From a virus: a stretch of 24,740 nt of DNA. The notes beneath the pieces are model-generated. The model had not been told where the DNA came from. It made no database searches and saw only the letters and a list, made by a program, of their open reading frames with translations. The stretch spans positions 1-24,740 of the IMG/VR virus record IMGVR_UViG_3300013006_002408; one strand, 5' to 3'. This document shows positions 9,158 through 24,125 of this stretch, one piece after another; positions within the stretch are counted from its first letter, which is position 1; each line of letters starts with the position of its first letter. Made by a program: the position numbers and the translations under genes.

Positions 9158-10993
9158 ATGTGGTATTCTCCAGATAAATATAATAGGCCTAATTTAGTAG
9201 ATACTAATAAAGAGCTGCTAAAAATTGAAGGTCCAATGATGGACAAAGAAGCTAGAATAAGTTTAGCAAAATTCTTAAGAACAAATTTGGGAATCACAAC
9301 TGAATTAATCAGTGGAATTAAACTTGCTCCATATCAAGAAATAACTTTAAAGGCATTCTTTAACCGTAATTTCAATATGTGCATCTTCGGTCGAGGTTGT
9401 GGAAAAAGTTTCATAGCTAGTGTGTATTGTTTTCTCCAGTGCATTTTTGAACCTAATTCTAAAATTTTAATAGCTGGGCCTACATTCAGAACAGCAAGAA
9501 ATATATTTACTAATCTTGAAAAAATAGTAAATAGTAAAGAAGCTCAATTATTACAACAAGCTTTTGGAGTCAAAAGCAAAAGAAATGATTTATTTGAATG
9601 GCAGATTAATGGTGGAAACATAGTGGCTATACCTTTGAATGGTGAAAAGGTTCGAGGTTTCAGAGCAAATGTTCTTGTGTTGGATGAGTTCCTACTTATA
9701 CCAGAAGACATAATTAAGAATGTACTTATGCCGTTCTTAGTCGCCCCACAGAATATGAAAGAAAGAATTCAAATAAGAGAGATGGAGGATAAGCTTATAT
9801 CTGAAGGATTGATGAAGCATGAAGACAGAATGGTTTTTCCAAATAAATCTAAAATGATAGCCTTATCTTCTGCAAGCTATACATTTGAAAATTTATATAA
9901 AACTTATAAAGAATGGATATCTAATATTTATTCTGAAGATAAAGTAAAAGATGCTACATATTTTGTAAGCCAAATGGGATATGATTCATTGCCAGAAGAA
10001 ATGATAGATAAGACTATTATAGAAGAAGCCCAAGCTGGTGGATTAAGTCATAGTGGATTTTTAAGGGAATACTGTGCTCAATTTACAGATGGCAGTGACA
10101 GTTATTTTTCAGCAAAGAAAATGCATGAATGCACTATCCCTGATGGTGAATCTCCTACTTCTAAAATATATGGAGACAAAGATAAAAAATATATAATAGC
10201 TATTGATCCGAGTTTTAGCAATAGTCCAAGCTCTGATTATTTTGCTATGAGCGTACTTGAACTAGACGAAGAGAAAAAAGATGCAACTATAGTCCATTCT
10301 TATGCAGTAGCTGGTGGAGATCTTAAGGATCATATTTTATATTTTCATTATTTAATGACTAATTTTAATGTGGAAATGGTTATTATTGATAATGCTGGAT
10401 ATCAATTTATCGACTCAGCAAATGAAAATGAATTATTTAAAAAATCAAACATTGATCTTAAATTTTTTGATGTTAATTCTGATGCAGAAGGAACAGAATA
10501 TGATCTAATGTTGAAAGATGCAAAAAGACAGTTTAATAAAGAAACTAAAAGAATATGTTTCAAACAAGTATTTACTATTGAATTCATTCGTAAAGGTAAT
10601 GAATATCTTCAAGCAAGTATAGATCATAAGAAAATATGGTTTGCTAGTCGTATATCTGCAAATGGAGATGCATTTGGAAGAGTAACTGGTCATAATATTA
10701 ATATAGAAAATACTGGATTTGATAATCTAATTGATTTTGTTGAGAACCAAGATGACATGATATATGGCACAAAGAAAGAATGTAGTTTAATAGAAATAAA
10801 AAGCACAAGTCGAGGACTTCAATCTTTTGATTTACCTCAACACTTAAAAAGAAATACTAGCGCTACTAGAGCAAGAAAAGATAGATATACAGCTCTTATG
10901 TTAGGTAATTGGGCTAGTAAGATATATTTTGATTTAGTTAAAGTAGAGAATAAATTAGAAAACGACACATTTACTCCTATAATGTTAAAATAG
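9158..10993 (+). CDS. Terminase large subunit (packaging ATPase-nuclease)
   Basis: 611 aa. Motor that pumps phage DNA into proheads and cuts it. ATPase domain: a Q-motif-like YQEI (59-62), Walker A GRGCGKS (78-84), an AGPTFRTARNIF strand, Walker B LVLDE (173-177), and an ALSSASYT coupling motif (235-242). The RNase H-like nuclease follows, with acidic residues in AIDPSFS (Asp350) and MVIIDN (Asp411) and a late acidic stretch ENQDD (527-531). Full length for a TerL. It is downstream of the ERCC4-type nuclease and directly upstream of the portal gene, the usual packaging order. Confidence 0.95.
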   Translation: MWYSPDKYNRPNLVDTNKELLKIEGPMMDKEARISLAKFLRTNLGITTELISGIKLAPYQEITLKAFFNRNFNMCIFGRGCGKSFIASVYCFLQCIFEPNSKILIAGPTFRTARNIFTNLEKIVNSKEAQLLQQAFGVKSKRNDLFEWQINGGNIVAIPLNGEKVRGFRANVLVLDEFLLIPEDIIKNVLMPFLVAPQNMKERIQIREMEDKLISEGLMKHEDRMVFPNKSKMIALSSASYTFENLYKTYKEWISNIYSEDKVKDATYFVSQMGYDSLPEEMIDKTIIEEAQAGGLSHSGFLREYCAQFTDGSDSYFSAKKMHECTIPDGESPTSKIYGDKDKKYIIAIDPSFSNSPSSDYFAMSVLELDEEKKDATIVHSYAVAGGDLKDHILYFHYLMTNFNVEMVIIDNAGYQFIDSANENELFKKSNIDLKFFDVNSDAEGTEYDLMLKDAKRQFNKETKRICFKQVFTIEFIRKGNEYLQASIDHKKIWFASRISANGDAFGRVTGHNINIENTGFDNLIDFVENQDDMIYGTKKECSLIEIKSTSRGLQSFDLPQHLKRNTSATRARKDRYTALMLGNWASKIYFDLVKVENKLENDTFTPIMLK

Positions 10994-15771: not shown

Positions 15772-18030
15772 ATGAGTAAACAAATTTTAATCAAAAAAAG
15801 AAATGATACTTTAGAAAAATTCGATATAGAAAAAATAAATAAAGTTATCAAATGGGCAATCGACGGCTATTCAAATGTTAGCTTAACTGATATAGAAATC
15901 AATGCTAAAATTAGCATGAAAGATGGAATCTCATCAAAGGAAATTCATTCTCTACTAATAGAAAGTGCCGCTAACCTTATATCTATATCTAGTCCTAATT
16001 ATCAATATGTAGCAAGTAGACTTCTTAATTATCAACTAAGAAAAGAAGTTTGGAATGGCAAACACGCTCCAAGATTAATAGAATTTATACAAAACAATGT
16101 AAAAAATAAAATTTATGATCCTATTATATTAGAGAAGTACACAGCAGATGAGATCAATAAGATTGGAGAATTTATAGACCACGAAAGAGATTTCATATTT
16201 ACCTATGCTGGCATCAAACAGCTTTGCGATAAATATTTAATTAAAAATAGAACCACTGGAGTCATCTATGAAACTCCTCAATTTGCTTATCTATTAATAG
16301 CAGCTTATAGTTTTATTAACTATCCAATTGAAACAAGACTCAATTATGTAAGAAAATTCTATGATGCTATTAGCAAGCATAAAATTAATCTTCCAACGCC
16401 AATTATGGCAGGAGTAAGAACTTCTAGTAAAAATTATGCAAGCTGTTGTTTAATTGGTGTGGATGATACAAGAGAAAGCATTACTGCTAGTGCTACAGCA
16501 GTTAGTATGGCTACAGCAAATAGATGTGGAATTGGTATTGATGTTTCAAAAATCAGAGCTATTGGATCTCCAATCAAGAATGGAGAAGTGGTTCATACTG
16601 GATTAATTCCATTCTTAAAAATTTATGAAAGTAGCGTAAAGGCTTGGCAACAAAATGGATTAAGGGGTGGAAGTGCAACTTGTAATATTCAATGGTGGCA
16701 TTATGAAATTGAAGATGTAGTAGTATTAAAAAATAATGCTGGCACAGATGATAATAGAGTTAGAAAGCTCGATTATACAGTTGGTATGAGTAAACTATTC
16801 TATGATAGAGTTCTTAAAGATGAAGATATTACTTTGTTCAATAATGCTGAAGTTCCAGAACTTTATGAAGCTTGGGGAACAAAAGACTTTGATAAAGTTT
16901 ACAAAGAGTGCGAATCTAAAAGATTAAAGATAAAAAAGAAAGTTTCTGCTAGAAAATTGTTTTCTCTTATAGTTAAAGAAAGAGTAGAAACTGGTCGTAT
17001 TTATATTCTTAATATTGATCATGCTAATGATCATGGAGCTTGGCTTGATAAAGTAACAATGAGCAATCTATGCACAGAAGTTATTCATCCTACTATTCCT
17101 TTAAATGATTATAATGATAAAAATGGGGAAATTGGAATGTGTATCCTTTCAGCAGTTAATATGCTAGAGATAAAAAATTGGCAAGATCTTGAAAAGACCT
17201 GCGATCTAATCGTGAGATTTCTTGATGAAATCATAGATATTCAAGAGTACTTTAATATTGCTGCTGAAAATTTTGCTAAAAAACGTAGAAGTTTAGGAGT
17301 TGGAATTACAAACCTTGCAGCTTATCTAGCTAAAAATGAATTAAAATATAGTTCTGATAAATCTTTAACAGTCCTTGATGAATGGATGGAACATTTTCAA
17401 TACTATCTTCTTAAGTCTAGCCTTGAAATAGCTAAAGAAAAAGGCAAGTGTGAAAAATTTAATAGAACAAAGTATTCTCAAGGACTATTGCCCATAGATA
17501 CATATAAAGATAAATTAGATGAAATTGTTAAAAGAAAATTATCTTTAGATTGGGAACAATTAAGAAAAGATATAAAAGAGTTTGGACTAAGACACTCTAC
17601 GCTTTCGTCTTGTATGCCTTGCGAAAGTAGTTCAGTTATTCAATGCTCTACAAATGGTGTTGAACCAATTCGTAGTCTTATGACTTACAAGACTAGTAAA
17701 ATGGGCAAACTTCCAGTCATGGTTCCAGGAATAGGAAAATATGAAGAGAACTATGAGCTAGCTTATGATCTTAAAGATAACATTGGACTATTGAAAATTA
17801 ATGCTGTTATTCAAAAATATATTGACATGGCCATATCAACTAATGTATACTACAATTATAGTCATTATGAGAATAACATATTGCCAGATTCTAAAGTCAT
17901 GAAAGAAATAATGTATGCTTATAGTCTTGGGTTAATAAGCTTGTATTATAATAATACAGATGATGGTGATAAAGAACAATCTATGACTCAAAAAGAAGAT
18001 GATTGTGCTAGCGGAGCGTGTAAATTATAA
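15772..18030 (+). CDS. nrdA: Class I ribonucleotide reductase, large (alpha) subunit
   Basis: 752 aa. Reduces NDPs to dNDPs with the NrdB partner. An ATP-cone occupies about 1-90 (ILIKKRNDTLEKFDIEKINKVIKWAI). Catalytic residues line up with E. coli NrdA: Cys225 in YASCCLI, Asn432, Cys434 and Glu436 in SNLCTEVIHP, and Cys457 in GEIGMCILSA. The late motif PCESSSVIQCSTNGVEPIR is present. The C terminus ends CASGACKL, giving the redox shuttle pair Cys745/Cys750 that takes electrons from thioredoxin or glutaredoxin. All key residues are intact, so it should be active. An adjacent Cys226 is an oddity beside the catalytic Cys225. nrdB starts 5 nt after the stop. Confidence 0.97.
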   Translation: MSKQILIKKRNDTLEKFDIEKINKVIKWAIDGYSNVSLTDIEINAKISMKDGISSKEIHSLLIESAANLISISSPNYQYVASRLLNYQLRKEVWNGKHAPRLIEFIQNNVKNKIYDPIILEKYTADEINKIGEFIDHERDFIFTYAGIKQLCDKYLIKNRTTGVIYETPQFAYLLIAAYSFINYPIETRLNYVRKFYDAISKHKINLPTPIMAGVRTSSKNYASCCLIGVDDTRESITASATAVSMATANRCGIGIDVSKIRAIGSPIKNGEVVHTGLIPFLKIYESSVKAWQQNGLRGGSATCNIQWWHYEIEDVVVLKNNAGTDDNRVRKLDYTVGMSKLFYDRVLKDEDITLFNNAEVPELYEAWGTKDFDKVYKECESKRLKIKKKVSARKLFSLIVKERVETGRIYILNIDHANDHGAWLDKVTMSNLCTEVIHPTIPLNDYNDKNGEIGMCILSAVNMLEIKNWQDLEKTCDLIVRFLDEIIDIQEYFNIAAENFAKKRRSLGVGITNLAAYLAKNELKYSSDKSLTVLDEWMEHFQYYLLKSSLEIAKEKGKCEKFNRTKYSQGLLPIDTYKDKLDEIVKRKLSLDWEQLRKDIKEFGLRHSTLSSCMPCESSSVIQCSTNGVEPIRSLMTYKTSKMGKLPVMVPGIGKYEENYELAYDLKDNIGLLKINAVIQKYIDMAISTNVYYNYSHYENNILPDSKVMKEIMYAYSLGLISLYYNNTDDGDKEQSMTQKEDDCASGACKL

Positions 18031-18034
18031 TCCT

Positions 18035-19099
18035 ATGAAAACAGTTTTAAATTTAAAAAACGTAGACTATACTAAACAACCTTTGTTTCTTGGTGAAGAC
18101 TTAAATTTACAAAGATATGACCGTTTTAAATATCCTATATTTTTTGAATTGTTCAAAAAGCAGAATGAAAACTTTTGGTGGCCTCACGAAATTGCTCTTG
18201 GTAAAGATAGAAGTGACTATCAAAACTTAACTGATACTGAAAGATTTGTATTCGATAGTAATTTAAGATTTCAAACTCTTGGTGATAGTATGCTTTCTCG
18301 CAGCATTCATTCTCTTAAAGATTATGTAAGCAATCCAGAACTTGAAATTTGTATGAATACTTGGGCTCAATTTGAAGGCATTCATAGTTATAGCTATTCC
18401 TATCTTCTTAATAATGTCTACCCAGATCCAACTAAATTTTTTGATAGCATAATGCAAGATAAAGAGATCACAAGTCGCGCTGAACTTATTAGAAATAACT
18501 TTGATAAAATCCTTGGCGATGATGAAAAGAAAGATCCTAAACAAAAGATTTTTGATGCTATTCTTTCTATTAACGTAATGGAAGGACTTGTGTTTTATGT
18601 TTCTTTTGCTTGTTCCTTTTATTTTGGATATCGTGGCAAGATGGAAGGTAATTCTAAGATCATAAAATTCATTCAAAGAGATGAAGCTCTACATTTTGCT
18701 ACATCTCAAAATCTTTTAAAGATACTTCGTGATGAAGATGAAGAAGGTTTCACATCTATTGTAAAGAAAAATGAAGACAAGATTTATGCTTTCTACGAAC
18801 AAGCAGCAAAGAATGAAAGTGAATGGTCTCAATATCTCTTTAGTAATGGTAGTTTACTTGGATTAAATGCTGAGGTTTTAGATGGTTACTCTAAGTGGCT
18901 TTGTGATAGCAGATTAAGAAGCTTAGGCTATAAGAAGATCTTTAATCAAAAGGATAATCCTATAGCTGGATGGCATGATAGCTATTTAGACAGTAGTAAA
19001 GTACAAGTTGCACCACAAGAAACAGAAATTTCATCCTATAAAATAGGAGCTAGAAAAACAGATATTTCTGATGAGGATTTCTCTAATTTAAAACTATAA
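18035..19099 (+). CDS. nrdB: Class Ia ribonucleotide reductase, small (beta) subunit
   Basis: 354 aa from the ATG at 18035, 4 nt after the nrdA stop; an upstream in-frame start inside nrdA is not needed. Holds the diiron-tyrosyl radical that initiates catalysis in NrdA. Iron ligands can be placed: Asp84 (QTLGDSM), Glu114 and His117 (QFEGIHSYSYSY), Glu183 (NVMEGLVFYVSFACSF), and Glu217 and His220 (QRDEALHF). Tyr121 matches the radical Tyr122 of E. coli, so this is a class Ia-type radical protein rather than a Tyr-less class Ic. The C terminus (ISDEDFSNLKL) is the acidic/hydrophobic tail that docks on NrdA. Confidence 0.96.
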   Translation: MKTVLNLKNVDYTKQPLFLGEDLNLQRYDRFKYPIFFELFKKQNENFWWPHEIALGKDRSDYQNLTDTERFVFDSNLRFQTLGDSMLSRSIHSLKDYVSNPELEICMNTWAQFEGIHSYSYSYLLNNVYPDPTKFFDSIMQDKEITSRAELIRNNFDKILGDDEKKDPKQKIFDAILSINVMEGLVFYVSFACSFYFGYRGKMEGNSKIIKFIQRDEALHFATSQNLLKILRDEDEEGFTSIVKKNEDKIYAFYEQAAKNESEWSQYLFSNGSLLGLNAEVLDGYSKWLCDSRLRSLGYKKIFNQKDNPIAGWHDSYLDSSKVQVAPQETEISSYKIGARKTDISDEDFSNLKL

Positions 19100-20000: not shown

Positions 20001-20074
20001 TCTTGTATTTATTAACTTTTCTTTAATATCCCATAGAAGACTTTCCCTCATATATATCATATTAAGGTTGTGTC

Positions 20075-20281
20075 TAGTATACAGTCCCTACTTTTCTTTT
20101 AACTCCCATTTTCCTCTTTCGAGGAAACAGACTACGGCACTTATAGGAGCGAGGTGGCTTACTCCTGTACATGCTGCCGTCCCATACATCCACACATTAA
20201 TTCCCGAGCCATATTATGCACAAGGGAAGTTTTCATAGTCGCAAGTCTTCACAGCGTTGCTATCTCTCGGACTATATACTA
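20075..20281. ncRNA. Unassigned structured RNA candidate, about 200 nt
   Basis: A 13-bp helix closes the element: TAGTATACAGTCC (20075-20087) against GGACTATATACTA (20269-20281), 12 of 13 paired. Inside are TTTCCTC/GAGGAAA (20110-20127) with a 4-nt loop, and ACGGCA/TGCCGT (20134-20139, 20175-20180) enclosing TATAGGAG/CTCCTGTA (20142-20149, 20162-20169). The loop of the latter (TGGCT, 20155-20159) can pair with AGCCA (20207-20211), forming a pseudoknot. A UUCCC/GGGAA pairing (20201-20205, 20223-20228) is also possible. Strand is unsettled. Minus gives a GAAA tetraloop, a fully paired closing helix (one G-U) and a TTGACA promoter upstream. Plus gives G-U pairs that extend the inner hairpin and pseudoknot. 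I cannot match it to RNase P, 6S, SRP or group I RNA. Confidence 0.5.
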
Positions 20282-20339
20282 AATAATTTTCTATAAAACT
20301 ATCAAAATTGCCTATGATTAGAAGGCTATGTCAATTGGT

Positions 20340-20368
20340 ATGATACAAAGAACTTGGAAATTTGTCAA
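20340..20368 (-). promoter_or_regulatory. Minus-strand sigma-70-like promoter toward the structured RNA
   Basis: Read on the minus strand, a perfect TTGACA (20368-20363), a 17-nt spacer and TATCAT (20345-20340). Predicted start is near 20333, about 50 nt before the closing helix of the RNA candidate. No protein gene on the minus strand lies downstream, so a non-coding or antisense transcript is the natural product. Confidence 0.5.
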
Positions 20369-20389: not shown

Positions 20390-20605
20390 ATGGAGCTCAT
20401 TAAAAATCAAAACTCATGGATGAAATTCACAAAGAGTAAAGCTAAAAGCTATAATCTAGCAGAGGATAATATTGATAAGAATTTCAAACCCGAAGAGTTT
20501 CCTTGCTTAGTTCAATCATATATAAATTCAGATGTTAATGGTTTAAAATTGAAATTCGTTTTCGCTTATAAAAAAGATTGCAAAAAACTAATAGATAAAG
20601 TATAA
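20390..20605 (+). CDS. Small unknown protein
   Basis: 71 aa from ATG at 20390 (MELIKNQNSWMKF); a longer frame from 20354 exists but would run through the minus-strand promoter. It is lysine-rich, with a KPEEFPCLVQSYINSD segment and a KLKFVFAYKKDCKKLIDKV end that reads like a short beta strand plus helix. No Shine-Dalgarno is seen. Its last codons contain the -35 and -10 of the tmRNA promoter. I do not recognise it, and it may be a chance frame in an RNA island, but amino-acid composition and the tidy end argue for a real gene. Confidence 0.4.
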   Translation: MELIKNQNSWMKFTKSKAKSYNLAEDNIDKNFKPEEFPCLVQSYINSDVNGLKLKFVFAYKKDCKKLIDKV

Positions 20606-20606
20606 T
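20578..20606 (+). promoter_or_regulatory. Sigma-70-like promoter of the tmRNA gene
   Basis: TTGCAA (20578-20583), a 17-nt spacer and a perfect TATAAT (20601-20606). Predicted start near 20613, giving a leader of about 26 nt before the mature 5' end at 20639 that RNase P would remove. The box overlaps the stop codon of the 71-aa ORF. Confidence 0.6.
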
Positions 20607-20638: not shown

Positions 20639-21057
20639 GGGCCCGTAATGGTTTCGATTTTAAAAAATGGAATTGAAATGCAAGTAGAGTTGAAGTAGAC
20701 TCTTTAAACAGCTTCAAAAACACTTAACTGCCAAAACAGCTAAGCTAAAAGGTAGTTTCTCATTGAGAGTTTCTCACAATAAGAAGCACCTAATCGCAGC
20801 CTAAAAATCTGCGACCTGTTACCTATGACACATCTAATAGGATAATGGGTATTTAGATGTATGTCTTTAAATCCTTTTTATTTAATTTTTAAAGATATTA
20901 TTCAGGGTGGATATGGCTAAGGTTGTATTCATTTTTAAATAAATAGCTATAGCTCAATTGCTTATTCGACACTATAGCGAAATAACGGAATAAGATAAAC
21001 TTGTAGTATTTTAATTTGACTTTTTAAAAGACAAGAGTTCAATTCTCTTCGGGTCCA
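20639..21057 (+). ncRNA. ssrA: Phage-encoded tmRNA
   Basis: Rescues stalled ribosomes by acting first as alanyl-tRNA and then as a short mRNA. Acceptor stem GGGCCCG (20639-20645) pairs with CGGGTCC (21050-21056), including the G3-U70 wobble read by alanyl-tRNA synthetase; A at 21057 is the discriminator and CCA is not encoded. T-arm AAGAG-TTCAATT-CTCTT is at 21033-21049. Long helix H2 pairs TTTTAAAAA (20658-20666) with TTTTTAAAA (21021-21029), continuing as AATTGAAAT with ATTTTAATT. PK1 is AGAGT/ACTCT (20686, 20699) with TGAAG/CTTCA (20691, 20712). A late pseudoknot has GCTATAG/CTATAGC (20946, 20972) and CTTATTC/GAATAAG (20961, 20988). The stop codon of the tag sits in a hairpin loop (TCGCAG/CTGCGA), as in bacterial tmRNAs. 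Longer than most (about 419 nt). Confidence 0.93.
20730..20804 (+). other. tmRNA tag-peptide reading frame
   Basis: From the likely resume codon GCC (20730-20732), 13 nt after the end of PK1, an open frame of 24 codons ends at TAA (20802-20804). The tag begins AKTAKLKGS and ends KKHLIAA. The TAA lies in the loop of a 6-bp hairpin (TCGCAG 20794-20799, CTGCGA 20808-20813), the normal position for a tmRNA stop. The Ala-Ala C terminus is the protease-recognition end; the residue before it is Ile rather than the usual Leu or Val. Which codon is the true resume codon is inferred. Confidence 0.7.
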
Positions 21058-21084
21058 AGTATTTAACATATCAGCATTAATTTT

Positions 21085-21093
21085 GTGTAATTA
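21085..21093 (+). promoter_or_regulatory. Candidate phage promoter motif GTGTAATTA
   Basis: GTGTAATTA starts 16 nt before the ATG at 21101 and is followed by ATATCATGGC, the same junction as in the second paralogue. TTAACA (21063-21068) lies at a -35 distance. Confidence 0.45.
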
Positions 21094-21100
21094 TAATATC

Positions 21101-21403
21101 ATGGCTAAATATTTTAGAGAAGTGGGATTTGAAAATGTTGCATTAACAGCAAGCTCTTCTATAAATGGATCATTAATTATAGCTGCACCTGGAGCAGGAT
21201 TAAGTATATATTTACTTGGAGCTTCTACTTTTGATGATATCAGACTGCATGAAACAAATGGCTCTGGAGCAAATATAGTAAATATAGGTGGAGGAATGTC
21301 TGATTTTCCATCTACAATAAAAGTAACAGAAAATAAAGGAGTTTGGCTTGTGGCAAGTGCAAACACTGGAGTAACTCTTTTTTACTACATAGATAACTCT
21401 TAA
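21101..21403 (+). CDS. Small beta-rich protein, first of a tandem pair
   Basis: 100 aa from ATG 21101; an in-frame TTG at 21083 would place the promoter motif inside the gene and is rejected. The sequence starts MAKYFREVGFENVALTASSSINGSLI and ends VWLVASANTGVTLFYYIDNS. It is full of short beta-strand patterns (GLSIYLLGAS, NIVNIGGGMSDFPSTIKVTE). No signal peptide or cysteines. About 40% identical by eye to the next gene, with matching start, YLLGA, SDFP-x-TI-x-VT and LFYY motifs. Position among head-type genes suggests a virion decoration or tail component, but I do not recognise the family. Confidence 0.78.
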   Translation: MAKYFREVGFENVALTASSSINGSLIIAAPGAGLSIYLLGASTFDDIRLHETNGSGANIVNIGGGMSDFPSTIKVTENKGVWLVASANTGVTLFYYIDNS

Positions 21404-21405
21404 AG

Positions 21406-21414
21406 GTGTAATAA
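21406..21414 (+). promoter_or_regulatory. Candidate phage promoter motif GTGTAATAA
   Basis: GTGTAATAA starts 16 nt before the ATG at 21422, the same distance as in the upstream paralogue, and is also followed by ATATCATGGC. Confidence 0.45.
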
Positions 21415-21421
21415 CAATATC

Positions 21422-21709
21422 ATGGCAAAATATTATAGAGAAGCAGGTTTTGAAGGAGTAGCTCAAGTTGCCAATACTCTATTATCTGGAGTAGTATTGT
21501 CAGGTCAAGGACCAAATACAACAATTTATTTACTAGGAGCAAATGCTCACTCTAATACAGTTTTAAAACAAAATAATAATAATGGAGCAATCATAGCTTA
21601 CATCGCAGCTGGTAATTCTGACTTTCCAGCAACGATTGCAGTAACTGGAAATAATCATATTTTCTCATCAGGCAACGACGCATGTTCTTTATTCTATTAC
21701 GTTGAGTAA
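21422..21709 (+). CDS. Small beta-rich protein, second of a tandem pair
   Basis: 95 aa. MAKYYREAGFEGVAQVANTLLSGVVLSG matches the first paralogue nearly residue for residue at its start, and TTIYLLGANAH, SDFPATIAVTGNN and ACSLFYYVE align with the same positions there. It is slightly shorter and richer in Asn and Gly. No membrane segment is seen. The copies have diverged in their loops, so the duplication is old or under diversifying selection. It is probably a virion surface protein, with function unknown. The next gene starts 3 nt after its stop. Confidence 0.78.
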   Translation: MAKYYREAGFEGVAQVANTLLSGVVLSGQGPNTTIYLLGANAHSNTVLKQNNNNGAIIAYIAAGNSDFPATIAVTGNNHIFSSGNDACSLFYYVE

Positions 21710-21712
21710 TTT

Positions 21713-22876
21713 ATGAAAAGACTAGAAATCGATTTTAGTTCTAGTTTAGCTAAAAAAGGCAAAGCACCACTTAATAAACCATTTCGTCTTCCTTCTGGAA
21801 GCAAAAAGAAATTTGGTGTTTATGTCAAAAACGATAAAGGTAATATCGTAAAAGTTACTTTCGGTGATCCGAACATGTCGATAAAAAGAGACAATCCAGA
21901 AAGACGCAAAGCATATAGATCAAGACATGGTTGCGATAATCCTGGCCCAAAGTACAAAGCTAATTATTGGAGTTGCAAAATGTGGAGTGCAAAACCAGTT
22001 AGTAAAATTACTGGAAGTGAAGAAGAGATTACTTTGGAGATTGATGTTCAAGCCAAGAGTAAAGGTCTTTGGTATAATATTCAGCAAAAGAAAAAGAGAA
22101 TGGGCAAAAATTATAAACCAGCCAAACCTGGTTCAAAAGATCGCCCAACTCCAGAAGCACTTAAAAAAGCTCAAGCAGAAGATTACTCTAACGAACAATA
22201 CGAATGGGATGGCGAAACAGAATTTGATCAAATTGTATTTTTAGAAGACAAATCTTTAGCTCAAGTTGAAGAAGTTGAAGAAGCAGAAGATGACTTTGAA
22301 GATTACAAAGAAGATTTTTATAGTATGATAGTTGGTTCAATTAACTCTATATATCAACATTCAAAAAATGTAATTGAAAAATTAAATGATCCAATGGTAA
22401 AAGAAAATCTTACAGAACCATTCTTACAACAAATGGCAATTCTTGCAGAAGACTATATGATTACAATTCACAACTATGTAATGTTCAATAAAGAAAATGA
22501 AGAATCAAATGCTTCAATGATGTTTAAAGTTGGCGATAAAGTTAAAAATGTAAATGCAGAATGTAAGCACTATGGTAGCGAAGGAATCGTTAAAGAAATT
22601 CGTGACTTACCAGAAGATATGGGATATGCAGTAATGTATGAATGCACAAACGATGGATCAACTTGGAAAAAAGGGGATATGCTTGGTAAAACAGAAATTC
22701 AACTAGTAAAAGCTTCTGATAAATATCAAATAGAAGCAGACGAAGAATACAAAAAAATGACAACCATTGAAGCTCAAAAATTCAATGAGTTCTTAAAAAA
22801 ATGTGTTCCTACAAAAAAAGGTGATGACAAATCTAAATTTAAATCTTGCCTTGAAGACTACAAAAAAAATAAGTAA
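21713..22876 (+). CDS. Prohead/core-like structural protein
   Basis: 387 aa. Residues 30-91 carry a conserved module: KKKFGVYVKNDKGNIVKVTFGD, then RDNPERRKAYRSRHGCDNPG, then ANYWSCKMW, with Cys74 and Cys88. I know this module from capsid-region proteins of large marine and freshwater phages, often near prohead protease or core genes. A Lys-rich linker and an acidic coiled segment (VEEVEEAEDDFEDYKED, about 190-210) follow. Then comes a helical part and, near 270-335, an SH3/KOW-like domain (KVGDKVKNVNAECKHYGSEGIVKEI, then GDMLGKTEIQLVKA). It may be internal-scaffold or head-associated; the exact role is not known. Its 3' end overlaps the next gene by 53 nt in another frame. Confidence 0.75.
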   Translation: MKRLEIDFSSSLAKKGKAPLNKPFRLPSGSKKKFGVYVKNDKGNIVKVTFGDPNMSIKRDNPERRKAYRSRHGCDNPGPKYKANYWSCKMWSAKPVSKITGSEEEITLEIDVQAKSKGLWYNIQQKKKRMGKNYKPAKPGSKDRPTPEALKKAQAEDYSNEQYEWDGETEFDQIVFLEDKSLAQVEEVEEAEDDFEDYKEDFYSMIVGSINSIYQHSKNVIEKLNDPMVKENLTEPFLQQMAILAEDYMITIHNYVMFNKENEESNASMMFKVGDKVKNVNAECKHYGSEGIVKEIRDLPEDMGYAVMYECTNDGSTWKKGDMLGKTEIQLVKASDKYQIEADEEYKKMTTIEAQKFNEFLKKCVPTKKGDDKSKFKSCLEDYKKNK

Positions 22877-23393: not shown

Positions 23394-24125
23394 ATGAAAA
23401 ATAACCTATTTAAAAAGGTACTAAAAAGCACAGCCGCAAAATTAATTGCGGCTTTTTTAATGCTCAGTAGCGGTCAGTCAAAAGCTGCACTTAGCGTAAT
23501 CAATGGCGATTTTAGCGATCTGACTGGCAATACTTATGTGGGTGACGTCTGGTATAATGGCATTCCCAGTGGCTGGAACACTGACTTTCCAAACACAATT
23601 TACACAGTCAAGTATACTGGCATCACTAATGGCACTTATGATTACGTTGCCAACATTTCTCAACTCACCTCTACATCTCCTAATTTCTATGCTCTTTATC
23701 AAAGCGTAGGAACTACAGATTATACAGGTGATGTTACTGTAAAATTTGATTTAACAAATATTAATGGCGGTGGATATGATGTTGGTGTTGCAATCTTTCA
23801 AGGTCCCAATTTTAACACTCTACTTGCGAATCGTAGCATTCAGGATGTGTTCCCAGATGCTAACGGTGTTCCTCAAAACGGTGTTGGAACCTTTGAGCTC
23901 ACAGCATTGAATGTCGCATCTGGAAGCTTACTTCAGATCGCTTTTTGGACAACTGGAGGCACTCCAGGCTTGGACAATGTCTCGATAATCCCTGAACCCA
24001 CAACATTAGATTTAATCTCACTACCAGTAACAGCGGGTGCTTACATGGTGGACATGATCTCAAAGAATATCTATTCGTGTGGAATAAACCCTAAAAAATT
24101 TAACGCACTTACCATTGTGTACTAA
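23394..24125 (+). CDS. Exported beta-sandwich protein with a PEP motif
   Basis: 243 aa. Residues 1-31 are a Sec signal peptide (KNNLFKKVLKSTAAKLIAAFLM, cleavage near QSKA-AL). The mature part, VINGDFSD, then GWNTDF, NGTYDYVANISQL, TVKFDLTN, SLLQIAFWTTGGTPGLDNVSI, is the jelly-roll pattern of PEP-CTERM exported proteins in Verrucomicrobiota and Proteobacteria (NGDFE ... GLDNVSV). IPEPTT (199-204) matches the PEP sorting motif. The following residues are not the expected hydrophobic helix plus Arg cluster but SLPVTAGAYMVDMISKNIYSCG, so the sorting tail is degenerate. Base composition is less AT-rich than its neighbours. It is probably captured from a host; function unknown. An intrinsic-terminator-like hairpin lies in the signal-peptide codons. 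Confidence 0.8.
   Translation: MKNNLFKKVLKSTAAKLIAAFLMLSSGQSKAALSVINGDFSDLTGNTYVGDVWYNGIPSGWNTDFPNTIYTVKYTGITNGTYDYVANISQLTSTSPNFYALYQSVGTTDYTGDVTVKFDLTNINGGGYDVGVAIFQGPNFNTLLANRSIQDVFPDANGVPQNGVGTFELTALNVASGSLLQIAFWTTGGTPGLDNVSIIPEPTTLDLISLPVTAGAYMVDMISKNIYSCGINPKKFNALTIVY
23432..23458 (+). terminator. Intrinsic-terminator-like hairpin inside the signal-peptide codons
   Basis: AGCCGCAA and TTGCGGCT (23432-23439, 23446-23453) form a perfect 8-bp GC-rich stem with loop AATTAA, followed by a T6 run (23453-23458). It lies about 40 nt inside the gene at 23394, so it could stop most transcription from upstream (attenuation) unless ribosomes keep it open. Structure is seen; function is inferred. 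Confidence 0.65.

Follow-up and report, generated by a model that had tools for sequence, protein, structure and literature searches.

The window, which is the whole stretch of DNA analyzed here, is 24,740 bases long; it is a viral fragment of metagenomic origin from IMG/VR and carries a one-piece tmRNA gene on its plus strand (Table 1). This is the sole gene that ARAGORN calls in the window and the sole Rfam match in it: RF00023 aligns over its full length (model positions 1-374 of 374) to positions 20639-21058 with 94.7 bits, compared to a cut-off of 47 (E 4.9e-36). An initial annotation had proposed a complete tmRNA gene at this locus, and ARAGORN returned identical coordinates (20639-21057). 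The same annotation had named an alanine G3-U70 pair, an H2 helix, a PK1 pseudoknot and an internal tag frame with its stop in a hairpin loop; we see all of these, the G3-U70 pair lying within a 7-bp acceptor stem, and PK2 as well. The gene has the standard order rather than the permuted two-piece order, as indicated by both ARAGORN and the full-length match to the one-piece model. The discriminator is the A at 21057, and CCA is not encoded (the gene ends in GGTCCA, followed by ag).

Two other features held up in part. The late pseudoknot, whose stems GCTATAG/CTATAGC and CTTATTC/GAATAAG each have 7 bp, exists in the window and is missing from most relatives. The proposed promoter, TTGCAA-17-TATAAT, exists as well, and relatives have comparable sequences upstream of their tmRNAs; sigma-70-like matches in this AT-rich stretch occur at near chance density (6 found, compared to 4.4 expected). 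Assignment of the window to a tailed phage is borne out by its terminase, NrdA, NrdB, PhoH and tail fiber genes, which are accompanied by genes for a sigma factor, dNMP kinase, dUTPase and dCMP deaminase.

Several genes follow the tmRNA on the plus strand. Directly after it are two similar tandem genes (21083-21709; 106 and 95 aa) that look duplicated. The next gene (21713-22876) encodes a protein of 387 aa, which has at least 598 relatives in viral contigs and a conserved N-terminal domain in common with roseophages and pelagiphages. Positions 23394-24125 encode a secreted-looking protein with a PEP-CTERM-like end (PEPTTLDLISLP), which is unusual for a phage.

Table 1. Coordinates of the features discussed, as positions of the window
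Feature	Position	Strand	Evidence or remark
Terminase large subunit	9158-10993		
NrdA, NrdB	15772-19099		
Conserved structured RNA, divergent from tmRNA	20074-20282	-	42 distinct homologues; compensation; G-U versus A-C counts
Sigma-70 consensus promoter of structured RNA, TTGACA-17-TATCAT	20340-20368	-	11 of 12 positions match
Conserved 71-aa protein, no known family	20390-20605	+	Directly upstream of tmRNA; 50 loci
Candidate tmRNA promoter, TTGCAA-17-TATAAT	20578-20606	+	Overlaps small ORF end
One-piece tmRNA gene, mature part	20639-21057	+	ARAGORN; RF00023, 94.7 bits; covariation over 65 relatives
Acceptor stem, 5' strand GGGCCCG	20639-20645	+	Pairs with 21050-21056; G3 (20641) pairs with U (21054)
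Pseudoknot PK1	20686-20716	+	RF00023 match; drawn structure, covariation
Tag reading frame, AKTAKLKGSFSLRVSHNKKHLIAA	20730-20804	+	ARAGORN; pN/pS; stop TAA at 20802-20804
Hairpin with tag stop codon in loop	20794-20814	+	Paired in 100% of cells; compensation in 3 of 6 pairs
Pseudoknot PK2, second stem ACATCTA/TAGATGT	20815-20860	+	Drawn structure, covariation
Late pseudoknot, two 7-bp stems	20946-20994	+	In 12 of 65 relatives
T arm, AAGAG-TTCAATT-CTCTT	21033-21049	+	Stem hypervariable between phages, pairing kept

The tmRNA is the last element of a conserved cassette that begins with a divergent structured RNA of ~210 nt on the minus strand, followed by the gene for a ~70-aa protein. When the sequence preceding the tmRNA was used as a DNA query, 42 distinct homologues of the structured RNA were found. 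On the minus strand, 19 of its 37 predicted pairs are compensated, and G-U pair cells number 153, compared to 13 for A-C; TTGACA-17-TANNAT precedes the RNA in all 44 loci tested. The RNA lies upstream of the tmRNA, usually by ~340-360 nt, in 33 of the 59 loci with enough upstream sequence. It contains an invariant GGAGTYAAAAGAAAAGT, with motif homologues in 55 viral contigs, and occurs in some contigs (L009, L010, L011 and L021) without an adjacent tmRNA. Three homologues searched against Rfam 15 gave no plausible match at E values up to 5. Two other readings of this upstream element were dropped: an omega-RNA or TnpB remnant, because the RNA is conserved, has a promoter to itself and lacks a neighboring tnpB, and a 5' leader or riboswitch belonging to the small ORF, because the G-U and A-C counts and the promoter indicate the other strand.

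The ~70-aa protein was found at 50 IMG/VR loci, of which 46 lie within 4 kb of a tmRNA called by ARAGORN and 44 have the structured RNA, in a search that covered the whole IMG/VR collection with a query alignment built from tmRNA-adjacent genes. The genes of remoter members lie close to the 3' end of the tmRNA, on the opposite strand. The 71-aa protein of the window has no sequence match in Pfam, PHROG or PDB. AlphaFold predicts a confident fold with a helix and a beta-hairpin (pLDDT 90), for which a fold search returned nothing significant, the nearest entries being uncharacterized phage proteins at E >0.05. An SmpB relative was considered for this protein and rejected, as there was no sequence match and SmpB was not among the fold matches. 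The protein and the divergent RNA probably belong to the functional module of the tmRNA, and both appear to be new, in that no family in the searched libraries matches them.

Conservation of the tmRNA structure was assessed in a set of 65 phage tmRNAs, all distinct, that IMG/VR contigs carry. The reference structure, derived from the window sequence, has 95 pairs and comprises the acceptor, H2, PK1 to PK4, the stop hairpin and the T stem. Standard pairs make up 91.1% of pair cells, compared to 82.2% in shuffles (sd 0.3). Two-sided compensatory change occurs in 41 of the 95 pairs, a count that none of 500 shuffles matched, and the covariation score is 0.237, compared to 0.101 in shuffles. When the partners were slid, pairing fell to 32-51%; a structure drawn from one of the sequences is favored over slid versions by that alone, and the compensatory changes are stronger evidence than this comparison. 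G3-U70 is kept in all 65 genes. In the T stem, 98.5% of cells are paired and all five pairs show changes on both sides; H2 (98-100% paired) and PK2 (95-100%) both show compensation. Pairing is 87% in the first stem of PK1 and 63% in the second, partly through misalignment, and 81% and 45% in the two stems of PK3; PK4 as drawn is present in only 12 genes.

The tag encoded within this structure is also conserved. Two divergent types were found, AK[TSP]AKLKGSFSLRVS...LIAA, to which the 24-residue tag of the window belongs (ARAGORN), and AKTAKYKGHISARVSLVE..ASVA, with the first 15 residues largely common to both. The tag is under purifying selection as a protein: pN/pS in the tag frame is 0.36 for type I and 0.20 for type II, compared to 0.9-2.1 in the other two frames. 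Together, the covariation of the structure and the pN/pS of the tag frame indicate that selection acts on the RNA as well as on the peptide. Four tmRNAs (L231, L236, L237 and L238) are hybrids, joining an SVA-type tag to a window-type 3' pseudoknot region, which we read as evidence of within-gene recombination. Quite different tmRNA tags (ADNIVDMAPSLAEADAILAKYGWAEEAAVAA; GNKNRVKAFGLKAKKLALAA; GVNQLALAA) occur in three related or neighboring phage records (L160, L163 and L164).

The tRNA-like ends vary in a different manner from the interior of the gene. Pairwise diversity in the T stem is 0.52-0.535, compared to 0.01-0.30 in every other segment, and the 65 genes contain 30 sequence combinations of acceptor and T arm. 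The gene of L176, for example, has the tag of the window gene and almost identical flanks, and differs from that gene at 3 interior positions, compared to 14 across the two ends; its ends are those of L208 and L248, though these two carry the other tag type. On a scale of phylogenetic signal along the interior tree that runs from 0 (shuffled) to 1 (perfect), the ends show little signal (0.20-0.32), compared to 0.52-0.55 for the flanks outside the gene; interior segments mostly score 0.6-0.9 (0.34 for segment 286-295), values that are biased upward because the segments belong to the tree itself. Positions 8-13 and the T stem are ~380 nt apart and unpaired with each other, and they are strongly associated, by 1.66 bits, compared to 1.08 for the top of 2000 shuffles. 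The simplest reading of these sequence patterns is recombination that swaps both ends, with compatible pairs alone surviving. This modular exchange of tRNA-like ends suggests that the domain is under a pressure for which we have found no description.

Related phage contigs were gathered with two proteins, and 22 of the resulting 49 records have an RF00023 match above the cut-off. We also scanned viral contigs and 84,980 bacterial and archaeal genomes (GTDB) with a degenerate pattern for the tag start. The pattern occurs in 82 viral contigs, ~69 of which have an ARAGORN tmRNA bearing this tag; related contigs with this tag family are fragments of 4-225 kb. In the cellular genomes it matched 55 contigs, with no tmRNA among them (ARAGORN) and nearly all matches inside long protein-coding frames, in a scan that is blind to cellular tmRNAs with a different tag. 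No tmRNA in ~650 Bacteroidota and Pseudomonadota genomes matched the pattern GGGCNNGNNNTGGTTTCGAY.

Other searches were aimed at the host and at named relatives. The window terminase matched none of 397 Pelagibacterales and no close isolate (best match <60% identity, less than half covered). It matched one Flavobacteriales bin at 67%, and this bin is probably mixed because it holds three other terminase-like matches. A phage tRNA with a CAT anticodon has best matches of 89-91% in both Bacteroidota and Pseudomonadota, and the nearest relatives of NrdA are those of the Pelagibacter phages Mosig and HTVC008M (~52%). A DNA search of named phages with the tmRNA found short chance matches only.

We consider it very probable that the feature in the window is a functional phage-encoded one-piece tmRNA that supplies ribosome rescue with a phage-specific tag. 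The suggestion of the initial annotation that the phage supplies or redirects ribosome rescue and tagged-protein decay is partly supported, in that supply or redirection of rescue is the best reading. The small protein and the structured RNA of the cassette, and the hypervariability of the tRNA-like ends, had escaped that annotation. It did point to smpB as a gene to look for in the phage; smpB (PF01668) was found in none of the 49 related phage records and in 10 of 10 control bacteria, an absence that applies to these phage records, which are fragments and may be incomplete. We infer expression, processing, partners and benefit as follows. The tmRNA would be transcribed during infection, its 5' end would be trimmed by host RNase P, and CCA would be added. 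Host AlaRS would charge it with alanine via G3-U70, and it would be bound by EF-Tu and by host SmpB, whose fit is predicted. It would then enter ribosomes that have stalled on cleaved or truncated mRNAs, switch them to the 24-codon tag frame and release them at UAA. Because no smpB was found in the phage records and no cellular tmRNA with this tag was found, the tmRNA most likely uses host SmpB, AlaRS and proteases. The phage would gain its own rescue supply while the mRNA and the tmRNA of the host are possibly being attacked, and the tmRNA would most likely keep ribosomes available during mRNA cutting.

The fate of the tagged products is less clear. In model bacteria, the tag end recognized by ClpXP is LAA. 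The tags described here end in IAA or SVA instead of the usual LAA, so decay of tagged products is uncertain. Rescue might occur with the long basic tag (AKxAKxKGxxSxRVS...IAA or SVA) being read differently, leading to slower decay, to another protease or to sorting. We regard this as possible, if doubtful: proteases can still accept variants that end in alanine, whereas the conserved basic start common to both tag types, the unusual ends and the lack of a cellular tmRNA with this tag in the pattern scan of ~85,000 genomes all fit a different fate. The length of 24 residues fits it too, compared to a commonest tmRNA tag length of 10 aa (PMC11915505). This possibility is compatible with a phage-encoded supply of ribosome rescue and touches only what happens to the tagged product.

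Three other readings compete with that of a phage-supplied rescue. The phage tmRNA could mainly block host trans-translation, by titrating SmpB or by occupying stalled ribosomes, as suggested by mycobacteriophage DS6A, in which a tmRNA consisting of the tRNA-like domain only inhibits the host tmRNA, and titration of SmpB may be the cause (PMC4131195). The lack of smpB in the related phage records would suit such a decoy, but it is weakened by the selection on the tag, since purifying selection on the peptide is unneeded by a mere SmpB decoy, and the tag frame, stop hairpin and PK1 are conserved; we therefore think it improbable. Still less likely is that the gene is a functionless passenger, acquired from a host ssrA together with an attachment site or when a prophage excised imprecisely. 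Although integration at ssrA is common (PMC11915505), covariation and tag selection are kept across dozens of divergent phages, the gene lacks CCA, no similar cellular gene was found, and the window proteins searched gave no integrase family match. Host DNA or a chimeric assembly, conceivable for a record of metagenomic origin, is hardly credible, because phage genes surround the tmRNA and metagenomes that are independent of each other contain the same cassette with almost constant spacing.

It appears that these phages come with their own form of the bacterial system that rescues stalled ribosomes. The family bears on the question of why phages carry tmRNA: dozens of related phages clearly keep the gene by selection. 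We speculate, tentatively, that the locus is a dedicated trans-translation cassette, in which the linked protein and the divergent RNA might act together with the tmRNA, for example as cofactor and regulator or decoy, and its ends might be exchanged as coupled 5' and 3' modules, possibly for a match to host factors or escape from host nucleases or integrases. A selected gene with a tag seen in no cell searched, often accompanied by two further conserved elements, makes concrete tests possible.

Phage tmRNAs are already known, so the gene itself is not a first. The initial annotation was inexact in describing them as rare and mostly from very large phages: a tmRNA was present in 402 of 18,146 phage genomes (2.3%; PMC9004378), and mycobacteriophages have them too (PMC4131195). 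Like the bacterial one-piece ssrA (RF00023), the tmRNA described here has a tRNA-like domain with G3-U70, H2, PK1, a tag frame with a stop hairpin and several pseudoknots. It differs in being phage-encoded, in its basic 24-aa tag ending in IAA or SVA, in lacking an encoded CCA, in an acceptor that starts with GGGC, in its hypervariable T stem and in a drawn late pseudoknot that most relatives lack. Huge phages with tmRNA and SmpB (PMC7162821) likewise carry ribosome-rescue genes, whereas no smpB was found in the 49 records related to the window. The Methylophilales phage Melnitz and pelagimyophages (PMC9004378) are also aquatic tailed phages; their tmRNAs are of the permuted two-piece alphaproteobacterial form, some with a glutamine riboswitch, compared to a one-piece form with a divergent RNA here, and one-piece forms are rarely marine (PMC9004378). 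Complete tmRNAs on tailed phages are also known from mycobacteriophages (Bxz1, Wildcat and others) and from Bacillus phage G (PMC4131195), whereas the tmRNA of the window belongs to another phage lineage, encodes another tag and lies in a cassette with an apparently new RNA and protein.
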